Shown here piece after piece: positions 21,712 through 27,679 of a stretch of 64,000 nt of DNA (position 1 is its first letter; each line of letters opens with the position of its first letter). The DNA is taken from positions 310,001-374,000 of the forward strand of contig JALHQT010000004.1 of assembly GCA_022841825.1 (NCBI GenBank), in the 5' to 3' direction. This DNA is from Anaerolineae bacterium. GTDB taxonomy: Bacteria > Chloroflexota > Anaerolineae > Aggregatilineales > Phototrophicaceae. Under the pieces are notes generated by a model. The model searched no databases. It was not told where the DNA came from and saw only the letters and a list, made by a program, of their open reading frames with translations. A program made the translations under genes and the position numbers.

Positions 21712-23046
21712 TCATGAATAATCGCGGGCGCAGCGGAAGCCGTCGTAGATGTTGAAGTAGTCCGGTACGTTGTTATTGCGAAATGATGTCGACAGGAATG
21801 CCTCACCACCGCTGTCATACGCCCCTCCGCGTATGACGCGGTAATCACCCTCCTCGTTGGCAGGGAGATCGCGACCATCTTCGTGGTCATAGGGATAGTC
21901 TCTGTACTTCGTGTTGACCCACTCCCAGATATTTCCGCTCATGTCATACGCTCCGACCCATGACACACCCTCCGGGCGAGAGCCGACAGGCAGAGATTCC
22001 TGCTCGGTATTGTCATCCCAGGCGGCATTCTCCTCGATCCACTCGTTGCCCCAGGGAAAGCGCAGGTTATCAGGTCCGCTCGCCGCATATTCCCATTCGG
22101 CTTCGCTCGGCAGGCGTGCGCCGCGCACCAGACAGAATCCACGCGCTTCGTACCAGGTGATGTTATCGCGCGGTTGGTCATCGTCGGCTGAATTTGGCTC
22201 TCGCTCTGCCTGCCCGTCGAAGCGCCAGAACTGCCCGTTGGTGACCTCGAATTTGTCAATCCAGAACGGCTCGTTGAAGCACAGTTCCACCGTCGGGCGT
22301 TCGTCGTCCGAGCCATCTTCGCTGCCCATCATGAAGCAGCCCGCAGGCACAAGCACCATTGGAACGCCGTCGAAGTCCTCGCTCCATACGCTCCAGTCGG
22401 CGTTGCGCGTGATTCGTGTGAAGCCGAGGGCGGTTTCGTCCGCAACAGGGGTTGTTTCGTCGGTTGCGGGCACCGTTGGCGAGGGCAGTGAGGTGTTTTC
22501 GGGGGTGTCCGCAGCAGGAGCATTCCGTAAGGTGAGCTGTGCCGCCGCGAATACGCCCCCGGCAATCAGTATCATCAGCGCCGTCAGCAATAGAGAGGTG
22601 GTTCTTTTGATGCCTCTGCGAGGAACTGACTTTCGAATCATTTTGGCGAGATCTTCAATCGCCTGATCGACATAAACATTCCGCACGTCGAGGATTTGGA
22701 TGCCGTCTGACTGGAGCAGTTGGTCAACGGCGGGGGTCGGCGCAGACTCTGGGGGGTTGTACTGCTCCTGAAAGATGGGGATCATCGTCTTGTGATGGGC
22801 GGCGGCGTGCTCGATTTCGTTCCTCACCCAGGTCGAATCGAGTGTCGTGGCACCCAGCAGGCAGACGAACAGATCGCTCGTTTCGATGGCGCGGCGCAGG
22901 CGGTCGGGGAAAGGTCCACCCCCATCCGTGTTGCGCGTGTCTACAAAGGCGTCAATGTCGTATTCGTTCTTGAGCGTGACTGCGATCAACGTCGCAAGGG
23001 CAGCGCTGTCGAGACGGCGGTATGAAATAAATGCGCGCGGCATCAT
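21712..23046 (-). CDS. TIR domain - TM - FGE-sulfatase-like domain protein
   Basis: 444 residues in three parts. Residues 1-~140 form a TIR domain: RAFISYRRLDSAALA, a LRRAIETSDLFVCLLG core, and Glu77 in WVRNEIEHA, which matches the catalytic Glu of NAD-cleaving TIRs. A membrane helix spans ~151-173, followed by a Thr/Pro linker. Residues ~228-444 match the formylglycine-generating enzyme/SUMF fold (PMVLVPAGCFMMGSEDG, ARLPSEAEWEYAA, GNIWEWV, YRVIRGGAYD). The two catalytic Cys of true FGE near the RGG motif are absent, so this half is probably a ligand-binding module. I infer an outside sensor joined to an inside TIR effector. No partner gene adjoins it. Confidence 0.88.
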   Translation of the reverse strand: MMPRAFISYRRLDSAALATLIAVTLKNEYDIDAFVDTRNTDGGGPFPDRLRRAIETSDLFVCLLGATTLDSTWVRNEIEHAAAHHKTMIPIFQEQYNPPESAPTPAVDQLLQSDGIQILDVRNVYVDQAIEDLAKMIRKSVPRRGIKRTTSLLLTALMILIAGGVFAAAQLTLRNAPAADTPENTSLPSPTVPATDETTPVADETALGFTRITRNADWSVWSEDFDGVPMVLVPAGCFMMGSEDGSDDERPTVELCFNEPFWIDKFEVTNGQFWRFDGQAEREPNSADDDQPRDNITWYEARGFCLVRGARLPSEAEWEYAASGPDNLRFPWGNEWIEENAAWDDNTEQESLPVGSRPEGVSWVGAYDMSGNIWEWVNTKYRDYPYDHEDGRDLPANEEGDYRVIRGGAYDSGGEAFLSTSFRNNNVPDYFNIYDGFRCARDYS

Positions 23047-23125
23047 CGTCGCATTTCACGCAGGAGGGTATCATCAAGTGTCAGCATTATGAACCTGTGC
23101 GGCTTTGGATGCAAATGGTGATGTA

Positions 23126-24379
23126 ATGGTCAAGAGGGTCGAACTGGAAATCGAAGCAATGACACAAGGTGGCTACGGGCTGGCGCGCCAGCGCGGGAAG
23201 AGCATCTATGTGCCATATACGATCCCTGGCGAGCGCCTGCACGCGCGGGTTGTTCGTTCGGACGAGCGCGCGACTTATGCGGAAGGCGTGCATCTGCTCG
23301 ATGCATCAGCAGACCGCGTGTATCCACGCTGCCCGCATTTCGGTCCTGGGCGCTGCTGGCGCTGCCAGTGGCAGCATATCGATTATCCGGTACAGCTTCT
23401 TCTCAAGCAGGATGTGCTGGCGGAACATCTGGAACGCCTGGGCGGGGTGCGCGACGATGTCGTGCAGTCGGTCGTCGCCAGTCCCGAAGCGTACGGCTAT
23501 GCCTATCACATGACGTTCCTGCCGCTCGCCTCCGGGGGTTTCGCGCTCCCTGATGCGAAAGAGCAGCCTGTTCCGATTGAAGTCTGTCATGTGCTGCATC
23601 CCGACCTGCTCGACCTGGTTGCGCGATTGGATATGACACTGCCGGCGCTCAAGCGCCTGAAGCTTCAGCTTGGCAGCGCTGGCGAACGCATGATCGTCCT
23701 CTATATGAGCGATGAGAGCGCGCCAGAGTTGGAGACGGATCTGGATGCCAGCATCAACCTGCTGCTGCCAGACAATGAGCCGATGAACCTGGTGGGCGAA
23801 TCGCATGTCCGCTATCGCATCCATGACCGCAGCTTCCGGGTGACGGCAGGCAGCTACTACCGTGCCAACGCCGCGTTGGTGCCCGCCCTTGTGGATGCAG
23901 TTGTGATGCTGCTCGCGCCACAGCCTGACGAATACATCCTCGATCTGTATTCTGGCGTTGGGGTCTTTGGCGCGTTCCTTGCGCCGCGCGCGAAACTGGT
24001 CACCGTCGTGGAGAGTTACCCTCCGGCGGCGACGGATGCGGAGATCAACCTCGCTGACCTGGACAATGTCGATGTCATCGAAGGCACGGTCGAAGAAACG
24101 TTGGGTGAATTAGACGGGCGCTACGATGCGGCAGTGATCGATCCGTCAGCAGCACTCAGCGAAGATGCTCTGAAAGGAATCATGGATTTAGGCATCACGC
24201 GCCTGGTGTACGTCAGCGGCGACAGCGCGACACTGGCGCGGGATACGAAGCGATTGCTCAAGCTTGGCTTTCGCCTTGTGCGGGCGCAACCGTTCGATTT
24301 TGCCCCACAAACCTATCATATTGAGACGGCTGCATTGTTCGCGCGGAGCGGCGAAAACCCGCCTGAGAAAGCAGGATAG
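23126..24379 (+). CDS. TrmA/RlmD-like RNA methyltransferase homologue lacking the catalytic Cys
   Basis: 417 residues from ATG 23126. It has an N-terminal TRAM-like segment (1-~60), four Cys of the type that bind a 4Fe-4S cluster (Cys69, Cys77, Cys80, Cys154), and a Rossmann SAM domain (ILDLYSGVGVFGAFLA at ~271-286). Members make 5-methyluridine in rRNA or tRNA via a Cys nucleophile in YVSCxPxTLARD. Here the motif reads YVSGDSATLARD, with Gly365 in place of Cys. The DPPRxG motif reads DPSAAL, and the QxN SAM motif reads YYRANAA. The late Glu400 is kept. It is probably not an m5U enzyme; RNA binding or another reaction is possible. Confidence 0.88.
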   Translation: MVKRVELEIEAMTQGGYGLARQRGKSIYVPYTIPGERLHARVVRSDERATYAEGVHLLDASADRVYPRCPHFGPGRCWRCQWQHIDYPVQLLLKQDVLAEHLERLGGVRDDVVQSVVASPEAYGYAYHMTFLPLASGGFALPDAKEQPVPIEVCHVLHPDLLDLVARLDMTLPALKRLKLQLGSAGERMIVLYMSDESAPELETDLDASINLLLPDNEPMNLVGESHVRYRIHDRSFRVTAGSYYRANAALVPALVDAVVMLLAPQPDEYILDLYSGVGVFGAFLAPRAKLVTVVESYPPAATDAEINLADLDNVDVIEGTVEETLGELDGRYDAAVIDPSAALSEDALKGIMDLGITRLVYVSGDSATLARDTKRLLKLGFRLVRAQPFDFAPQTYHIETAALFARSGENPPEKAG

Positions 24380-25998: not shown

Positions 25999-26469
25999 TC
26001 AGTCCCGAACAGAAGCATCTGCGGTGTCATCGTCAGCGGGCGGGATCGCGGCGAGATGATCGCGCAGGGTTGCCAGCGCATCACGCACCGAGGAGGGTAG
26101 TATGTCTGCCTCGGCAAAGCGCGTCGCCAGATACTGATCGTTGAGGTTGCTCGCCTGGATCGCCATGACGCTGAAGCGCGTGTAGTGCTTGAGCATATAG
26201 GGATATTCGGTCGTCAGATGATGGCGGATGGTTTGCAGCGTGGTCTCCAGCGAGATGTCGCGCTTGTCGATACGCAGTGTAAGCGCTCTGCGTTCTTCCA
26301 GTGCGATGCCCGTGCGATCCTGCGCCGCATGGACGGCATCGACACAGCGAACGCCAGCGCGCAGCCATTCATGCAGCCGGGGCTGGCGCAGCGATGTGCC
26401 TGCGATGGTTTCGCCTCGAAGGGTCATCCGCAGCGCTTTCCAAAAGGCGCGCACGTATCGTTGTATCAT
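25999..26469 (-). CDS. Helical hypothetical protein in the CAP/LysM operon
   Basis: 156 residues, predicted mainly helical, basic at the N-terminus (MIQRYVRAFWKALRMTLRG). No signal peptide is convincing, although the first 20 residues could be amphipathic and membrane-associated. It contains no Cys and no known motif. It begins within the stop of the upstream CAP/LysM gene (ATGA), so the two are translationally coupled, which suggests a common task at the membrane. Confidence 0.65.
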   Translation of the reverse strand: MIQRYVRAFWKALRMTLRGETIAGTSLRQPRLHEWLRAGVRCVDAVHAAQDRTGIALEERRALTLRIDKRDISLETTLQTIRHHLTTEYPYMLKHYTRFSVMAIQASNLNDQYLATRFAEADILPSSVRDALATLRDHLAAIPPADDDTADASVRD

Positions 26470-27557
26470 CGTTTCTTCCTTCGGAAGAATTCAATGCCAG
26501 CGCCGATCAGGATTATGACCTGCAATCCCAACCCAATGACGAGCCAGGTCGGGAGCGCTTGCGTACTCATGGCGGTCGGTGTCGCGGATGGCGCTGGCGT
26601 CGTCAGCAGGGCGATTTCGGTCTGGGCGGTCGTAGGGGATGGGGATGGCGATAGCGCGACGGCGGCGATCAACAGGCTTTCGGGGATGGCGGCTGCGGTC
26701 GCAATGCCCATCGGCGTCGGTGATGATGTGGGGGTGATCAGCATCGGGTCTTCTGGGAAGGGCGTCGGGAACTGCGCGGTCGCGGTCGGCGGCGTGGTGG
26801 GTTCGCCTGGCGTCGGGGTAAAGGTTCCCGACTGCGATGGCACTTTGAGTAGCGTCCCAACTTCCAGATCGCGCACATCGGCGATGCCGTTGATGCTCAT
26901 CAGGTAGGGGAGTTCGTCCCAGGTGTAGCCGTAGATCAGGAGGATGTCGCCCAGCGTGTCGCCCTGCTGGACTTCGTGCAGGATGTTGCCCTGTTCGTCT
27001 AGACCGCGCACATAAGAAGGCTGCTGAGGCGGTGCAGACGCCGCGCCACCCGCTGTTCCACCGCTGCCCCCAGCCGCAGGCGGCGGCGCGGGCGGCGGTC
27101 CGCCAGGATTGCCAAAGACGAGGACAAACGCCGCGCCCCATCCGCCGCGCGCGATGCCAATGCCGATCTCCTGATACCGTTCATTGACCAATCCTCGATA
27201 GTGAATTCCGGAATTGACCCAGAATGACCAGGCATCCCCGACGCCTGCGCTGCCGCCGCCGTAGATATTCTCGCTGACGTCGTTGGTTGGATAGCCAAAT
27301 GCCAGGGCGCGGCTGCGGACGCCATTGCCGTCTGGTCGGGTGTGGGCGACCGTGCCTGTGTTGACGATCCACTGTGCCTGATCCTGCGCGGCGGCGCTGA
27401 GGGACCCATTCAGCGTGTAAGCGGGACGCCCGACGCTGGCGCGCAGGTTGTTGATGCGCCCTAATAGATCACTCACCTCGCCCTGGGCTGAGACCCAGGA
27501 GATGGGGAGTAAAGTCAGGATGAGAAGGGTGAATACCCTCAGGCTTGTTCGTTTCAT
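26466..27557 (-). CDS. Membrane-anchored CAP (SCP-like) and LysM protein
   Basis: About 363 residues from ATG 27557. A signal peptide (~1-25) is followed by a CAP/SCP-like domain at ~28-150 (LLGRINNLRASVGRPAYTLNGSLSAAAQDQAQWI, VAHTRPDG, DVSENIYGGG, HYRGLVNERYQEIGIGI). A LysM domain lies at ~185-240 (HEVQQGDTLGDILLIYGYTWDELPYLM), then a Pro/Thr linker and a C-terminal membrane helix ending in RRKKR. It should sit on the outside of the membrane and bind peptidoglycan through LysM. Longer in-frame starts upstream lack support. It heads the operon with the 156- and perhaps 112-residue and SDR genes. Confidence 0.88.
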   Translation of the reverse strand: MKRTSLRVFTLLILTLLPISWVSAQGEVSDLLGRINNLRASVGRPAYTLNGSLSAAAQDQAQWIVNTGTVAHTRPDGNGVRSRALAFGYPTNDVSENIYGGGSAGVGDAWSFWVNSGIHYRGLVNERYQEIGIGIARGGWGAAFVLVFGNPGGPPPAPPPAAGGSGGTAGGAASAPPQQPSYVRGLDEQGNILHEVQQGDTLGDILLIYGYTWDELPYLMSINGIADVRDLEVGTLLKVPSQSGTFTPTPGEPTTPPTATAQFPTPFPEDPMLITPTSSPTPMGIATAAAIPESLLIAAVALSPSPSPTTAQTEIALLTTPAPSATPTAMSTQALPTWLVIGLGLQVIILIGAGIEFFRRKKR

Positions 27558-27679
27558 GGGCGCGATTTTAGCACACTCGGCAGCGCTCTCCAGCCTGTGT
27601 GCGTCCATTTCTTTCTCACGCGGAAAACGCGGCATGGGTGACTTGGGCAACCTTTGTGGGTTTTCCATTCACCGTCACG

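Follow-up and report, generated by a model that had tools for sequence, protein, structure and literature searches.

The window analysed here, a stretch of 64,000 nucleotides from an Anaerolineae (Chloroflexota) genome, carries a gene for a protein related to RlmD/RumA, the enzyme that makes m5U1939 in 23S rRNA, from which the catalytic cysteine is missing (Table 1). A TTG codon at 23105 offers a possible alternative start, but most homologues recovered in the homologue search begin their alignment at about residue 3-8 of the window protein. Scored alone, the window protein reaches 181.3 bits against TIGR00479 (rumA), under the curated cut-off of 183.55, passes the gathering score of 23 for PF05958 (tRNA_U5-meth_tr superfamily) with 29.6 bits over residues 233-407, and scores 28.3 bits against TIGR02143 (TrmA, tRNA m5U54), not reaching the cut-off of 334.65. 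Its top solved relative in phmmer is E. coli RumA (1uwv, E 5.4e-36). An AlphaFold model built from a 19-sequence alignment has a mean pLDDT of 91.1 and a pTM of 0.90 (pLDDT of the control model of a canonical protein, L053, 87.7), and VIA-align superposes it on RumA 2bh2 (Z 42.3, 2.4 Å over 391 residues, 27% identity) and on RlmCD 5zq0 (Z 42.3, 2.2 Å over 407 residues), followed by other m5U methyltransferases and then by unrelated structures with Z below 20. The predicted model and its fold matches indicate a TRAM domain, a central domain and a SAM-methyltransferase fold, with a weak PyTRAM match at residues 4-48 (E 0.005).

Table 1. Features of the RlmD-like gene, its product and neighbouring open reading frames, in window coordinates; residue numbers are those of the window protein.
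Feature	Position	Strand	Remarks
Open reading frame of 684 aa	19639-21693	-	N-terminal half a long Thr/Ser/Pro-rich low-complexity stretch, by eye
TIR/FGE-sulfatase gene	21712-23046	-	N-terminal TIR and C-terminal FGE-sulfatase (formylglycine-generating) domains, by eye a membrane-segment-like stretch between them; oriented divergently from the RlmD-like gene
Cys-less RlmD/RumA-like protein	23126-24379	+	417 aa plus stop; ATG at 23126, stop ends at 24379
N-terminal TRAM (OB-fold) domain, about residues 1-60	23126-23305	+	From the strand pattern of the model and the RumA 2bh2 16-431 alignment
Cys69, first Fe-S-type cysteine (RumA Cys81)	23330-23332	+	79/81 clade rows, 60/60 canonical rows
Cys77-Trp-Arg-Cys80, second and third Fe-S-type cysteines	23354-23365	+	Cys in 79/81 and 77/81 clade rows
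Ala126, replacing an RNA-contacting Arg (RumA R128)	23501-23503	+	Arg in 60/60 canonical rows; Asn in 52/81 clade rows
Cys154, fourth Fe-S-type cysteine	23585-23587	+	81/81 clade rows
YYRAN (for FxQVN), residues 244-248	23855-23869	+	Arg246 where the uracil-contacting Gln stood
SAM motif I, LDLYSGVGVF, residues 272-281	23939-23968	+	D273 in 77, Y275 in 81, G277 in 80 and G279 in 81 of 81 clade rows
Motif IV, DPSAAL (canonical DPPRxG), residues 339-344	24140-24157	+	Asp339 kept, Arg lost
Nucleophile motif YVSGDSATLARD, residues 362-373	24209-24244	+	Gly365 (24218-24220) at the Cys position
Glu400, general-base position	24323-24325	+	Glu in 60/60 canonical rows
CAP/LysM gene	26466-27668	-	CAP and LysM domains; Thr/Pro-rich stretch by eye

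Searches of the window's genome (95.7% complete) with the protein, TIGR00479 and PF05958 found no other RlmD/TrmA homologue, and thus none of the second intact copies whose existence the initial annotation had considered; the remaining matches are weak and partial and look like other Rossmann methyltransferases. The same genome contains one TrmFO match (640.3 bits over cut-off), so tRNA m5U54 probably has another maker there. A missing target does not account for the lost cysteine, because U1939 is intact (GCGAAATTCC) in the Rfam-verified 23S genes of three relatives (G058, G061 and G020) whose one RlmD-type match each is Cys-less; G058 is a one-contig genome with this single match. The region is likewise intact in the Rfam-verified 23S genes of G050 and G115, which carry both the Cys-less and the canonical form. 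A pattern search of the window's genome returned a candidate U1939-to-C change (GCGAAACTCC), rejected as a chance match with no Rfam match around it; no other match to the U1939 region within two mismatches was present, and the 23S gene seems absent from the assembly.

No general conserved gene partner was found across 19 related loci plus the window. The short-chain dehydrogenase gene downstream is common to three of these 20 loci (the window, L040 and L041), an aminotransferase-like gene occurs in six, at differing distances, and four share a neighbourhood with prfA-, prmC-, rsgA- and dnaX-like genes, recognised from sequence alone.

Sites were compared between 81 non-redundant rows of the Cys-less clade and 60 canonical rows, near-identical rows and fragments having been removed before the site table and the trees were made, among them clade row L076, which has a gap at the Cys column. 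Window residues were matched by alignment to E. coli RumA, Gly365 corresponding to Cys389, Arg246 to Gln265, Asp339 to Asp363 and Glu400 to Glu424, while RlmCD equivalences were counted by hand, from the phmmer alignment where it covers the site. By our own count, the position of Ala126 would be that of R127 in RlmCD. Translation and the RumA alignment bear out the initial annotation that the nucleophile cysteine is missing and that DPPRxG reads DPSAAL. The nucleophile column of the clade holds Ser in 34 rows, Gly in 32, Asp in 9, Ala in 3, Gln in 2 and one other residue, with Cys in none; Gly365 itself is therefore not conserved, as had been thought possible, and it is the absence of Cys that is clade-wide. 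The clade alignment places no other Cys at the nucleophile position, and, the Fe-S columns apart, Cys stays below 20% of the 81 rows everywhere, column 374 (16/81) lying just under this limit. The Cys-dependent m5U mechanism is thus excluded for the window protein, in line with the argument that the known chemistry needs this residue, and the change is old and maintained.

Most of the uracil pocket has changed as well. Arg246 occupies the QxN position in 78 of 81 clade rows, where 59 of 60 canonical rows have Gln. The reported change at QxN therefore stands, but its description as SAM-binding needs some correction, the Gln being chiefly a base contact, since the equivalent Q283 of RlmCD hydrogen-bonds the flipped uracil (PMC6235398). 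In motif IV the Asp is kept in 77 of 81 clade rows, whereas the Arg (RumA R366) remains in 5 of 81, versus 60 of 60 canonical rows. The initial annotation was right that all four Fe-S-type cysteines are kept, and right about Glu400 in the window protein, but not clade-wide, position 400 being Asp in 52 rows, Thr in 12, Ser in 7 and Glu in only 4 of 81. The two glycines of CGGC (positions 78 and 79), present in 60 of 60 canonical rows, are replaced in the window protein, and Tyr244 stands at the position of RumA Phe263. Other pocket changes in the clade, in RumA numbering, are F417A (56/81) and H422Y (48/81), and the residue set of the clade includes Asn248 (76), Ala393 (56), Tyr398 (48) and Asp400 (52 of 81). 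The SAM region retains, beyond motif I, Glu296 (67 rows, with Asp in 13), Asp304 and Asn308 (both 81 of 81).

Mean column entropy in the clade is 0.05 for the Fe-S cysteines, 0.16 for the SAM motif and 1.56 for the methyltransferase domain, and for the uracil- and RNA-contact columns it is 1.70 (R246 and D339 included) versus 0.04 in canonical rows. Among 82 columns conserved in at least 95% of canonical rows, 15 are kept in fewer than half of the clade rows (21, 50, 78, 79, 126, 244, 245, 246, 252, 341, 365, 369, 393, 398 and 400). Six of these (126, 244, 246, 341, 365 and 400) are contact or catalytic positions, as judged from the nucleophile motif and the papers on RlmCD; column 398 is that of the phosphate-contacting His, and 245, 369 and 393 adjoin contact or catalytic positions in sequence. 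A single new residue accounts for half or more of the clade rows at 126 (Asn), 246 (Arg), 393 (Ala), 398 (Tyr) and 400 (Asp). All three clade rows that lack Arg246 also lack Asp339, and one more row loses the Asp alone (Fisher 4.7e-5, uncorrected for kinship and reflecting only two or three events); apart from these two positions, none of the 98 columns with at least 90% conservation differs in all three rows. The link is not strict, as L189, L190 and L213, outside the clade, lack both Arg and Gln yet keep the Asp, and five rows of the second Cys-less group (f39) keep the Gln and lose the Asp. Linked changes tested on the tree gave no significance, the events being too few.

Among genomes at least 85% complete from the family and order of the window genome, a match was found in 93 of 98 family genomes and 129 of 133 order genomes. 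The 92 typed family genomes, which are drafts, comprise 71 with the Cys-less form only, 15 with both forms, one with the canonical form only, one with the Cys-less form plus a fragment, two with the canonical form plus unreadable fragments and two with only unreadable copies; G087 was left out of this tally by a script filter, and its sequence (L125) has Gly at the Cys column. In the other families of the order, 38 of 43 matching genomes were typed on fetched copies, giving 26 canonical, 9 Cys-less (families f2, f3, f4 and f8), 2 with both forms and 1 unreadable, a count that leaves out the second matches of G106, G108, G110, G111, G116-G118, G122, G123, G130 and G140. Within f4, G115 and G119 carry both forms, and G116, G117 and G118 have a second match. 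A class-level search gave a match in 350 of 396 genomes. The first class sample of 20 loci contained 18 with the Cys and one without (L136), the remaining one being removed because it duplicates L053, a Cys-bearing sequence. The second added 20 loci, 15 of them from f39, the family of L136: 14 of these 15 were readable, and together with L136 all 15 readable rows lack the Cys, with Ser in 12 and Ala in 3; the five loci from other families all keep it. In f39, Asn267 is replaced by Ser and Asp363 by Asn or His, each in 14 of 15 rows. L136 and L213-L227 thus form a second, independent Cys-less group in another order, whose pattern is unlike that of the main clade, indicating that the two groups departed in different ways.

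In a tree of 148 rows built without the catalytic columns, the main Cys-less clade comprises 71 rows including the window protein (SH-aLRT 99) and the f39 clade 12 rows (support 99), with single Cys losses in L106, L119 and L189. At least five changes of Cys state are needed on this tree, four of them forced by well-supported branches, and five are needed on a second tree of 155 rows as well; in the first tree, of 118 rows, the main clade had 65 rows with support 98. It spans two bacterial families, and no readable row in it has the Cys. All trees come from quick searches and were rooted on RumA, whose branch is very long; neither a root nor a vertical paralogue is claimed from them. One canonical-looking RlmD (L103, genome G110) keeps the Cys but already has Arg for the QxN Gln (FFRAN), possibly an intermediate state.

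The window protein resembles RlmD/RumA in its three-domain architecture, four Fe-S cysteines, SAM motif and ATLARD segment, but lacks the nucleophile Cys, the uracil-contact Gln, the DPPR Arg and the RNA-contact Arg. With RlmCD (SP_1029) of S. pneumoniae it shares the fold and the equivalents of E333 and D381, whereas those of F281, Q283, R384 and R127 are changed; RlmCD differs further in its activity on both U747 and U1939 and, in the phmmer alignment, in lacking Cys at each of the three N-terminal Fe-S positions, where the window protein has it. The RlmCD passages of PMC5614603 and PMC6235398 assign base contacts to F281, Q283 and D381, a ribose contact to R384, a contact with the SAM ribose to E333 and the role of general base to E443. 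F281, which borders the entrance to the SAH homocysteine pocket, is needed for most activity (PMC5614603), R127A costs about 92% and 98% of activity, and Q283A and D381A lose activity without severely losing RNA binding (PMC6235398). Cysteine loss has a precedent in bovine mitochondrial TRMT2B, an m5U methyltransferase homologue that, according to PMC7237155, has Tyr for the Cys, is conserved in other respects, keeps its SAM site, makes no mitochondrial m5U54 and is proposed to be an RNA chaperone. In contrast to TRMT2B, whose loss concerns mainly Bovinae (the rat protein is also apparently inactive), the present case involves two bacterial clades in which the uracil pocket is altered beyond the Cys. 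The TrmFO-like proteins of Mollicutes are likewise m5U methyltransferase paralogues, with both catalytic Cys replaced by Tyr (PMC7226160), but belong to an unrelated flavin/folate enzyme family. Judged by titles and abstract openings, our search of the open-licence literature returned no paper on a Cys-less RlmD in Chloroflexota.

A decaying gene or a sequence error is the least credible explanation, even though the genome is a draft, many canonical motifs are changed at once and a few clade rows are worn, such as L076 with its motif gap. The frame is full-length in the window and in most fetched relatives, and Nei-Gojobori dN/dS is well below 1, at 0.025-0.265 for close Cys-less pairs and 0.060-0.305 for canonical pairs, two saturated pairs being without a value; with the matches in 93 of 98 family genomes, this agrees with the earlier view of an intact gene. 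A local error behind Gly365 is excluded because the nearest relatives (64-65% identity), from other genomes, share the Gly. An intact, clade-wide protein under purifying selection without the Cys likely has a changed function, as the initial annotation proposed. Its further suggestion of an inactive partner to a true enzyme elsewhere, here widened to a regulator of a coexisting canonical RlmD, would suit the 15 family genomes with both forms, and G115 and G119 of f4, but fails as a general explanation and is improbable: 71 of the 92 family genomes show the Cys-less form only, where draft gaps could hide some canonical copies but hardly most, and the window's genome has none. It is slightly less probable still that m5U is made by an unconventional route, with another nucleophile or none. 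Asp or Ser does stand at the nucleophile column in 9 and 34 of 81 rows, U1939 persists in Cys-less-only relatives, and RlmCD Q283A retains about 50% activity on U1939 RNA, so that on this RNA the loss of the Gln does not by itself settle the matter (PMC6235398). However, Gly (32) and Ala (3) also fill the column, the Arg that contacts the ribose is lost as well, as is, in most rows, the general base, and on U747 RNA only about 8% of activity is left in Q283A and about 2% in D381A (PMC6235398).

A more serious contender, although a tentative one, is a neofunctionalised methyltransferase that still uses SAM but methylates another base or atom by a non-covalent route, such as a guanine N held and deprotonated by Arg246, Asp339 and Asp/Glu400. 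Trm5 offers a parallel in its Arg/carboxylate chemistry. Such an enzyme would account for the conserved SAM motif (D273, G277, G279, E/D296, D304 and N308), for the coherent new set that is common in the clade (Arg246, Asn248, Asp339, Ala393, Tyr398 and Asp400) and for the joint loss of Arg246 and Asp339; the m1G37 enzyme Trm5 and the m1A58 enzyme TrmI are among the lower fold matches, as any class I methyltransferase would be. Against it, pocket positions 244, 341 and 365 vary freely, 19 of 81 rows carry Thr or Ser at position 400, and the equivalent of RlmCD F281 is not kept. The second Cys-less group has mostly Asn or His for the motif-IV Asp, including five rows that keep Gln246 and lose the Asp, L189, L190 and L213 retain the Asp with neither Arg nor Gln, and the Arg/Asp link reflects two or three events. 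The fuller proposal is slightly less likely still: here the clade would form a new family of RNA methyltransferases, derived from RlmD by giving up the covalent uracil-C5 mechanism and re-specifying the pocket, in which Arg246 and Asp339 would together serve base recognition and proton transfer, and f39 would have departed independently.

We rank above these a non-catalytic role, to which we give about an even chance: a Cys-less RlmD descendant, unable to make m5U, would be kept as an RNA-binding folding or assembly factor. The protein may still bind structured RNA (rRNA or tRNA) through its TRAM and Fe-S domains, while the methyltransferase domain may hold SAM or SAH and Arg246 may pair with Asp339 where the uracil pocket used to be; it may act in folding or in ribosome or tRNA maturation. 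This role would resemble the non-catalytic one reported for TrmA and TruB, which are tRNA chaperones, and inferred for yeast Trm2, whose inactive form rescues (review PMC11301382). That catalysis was lost repeatedly while the protein itself persisted in every case is in keeping with a retained second function and, with the free variation at 244, 341 and 365, favours the folding-factor reading. However, the near-canonical conservation of the SAM motif and the new Arg fixed in 78 of 81 rows are more than a pure scaffold should need, and Arg246 and Asp339 are lost together in all three rows concerned, as though the two still had some use. It is also doubtful that the protein binds the former RNA site, since most rows have lost the RNA-contact Arg and the R127A mutant of RlmCD lost activity. 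The Cys-less clade protein probably does a job other than textbook m5U1939 methylation.

For annotation these results carry a warning, as the window protein lies within three bits of the RlmD cut-off and is easily misread as an m5U1939 maker. If the new-family proposal is true, its members methylate rRNA or tRNA at some other base or atom, and another bacterial family has departed comparably and independently, with different pocket residues. The changes of Cys state, at least five in number and two of them common to whole sampled clades, amount to natural experiments on rRNA m5U methyltransferases, bearing on what such an enzyme is kept for once uracil methylation is gone, a question hitherto argued from TrmA, Trm2 and bovine TRMT2B.
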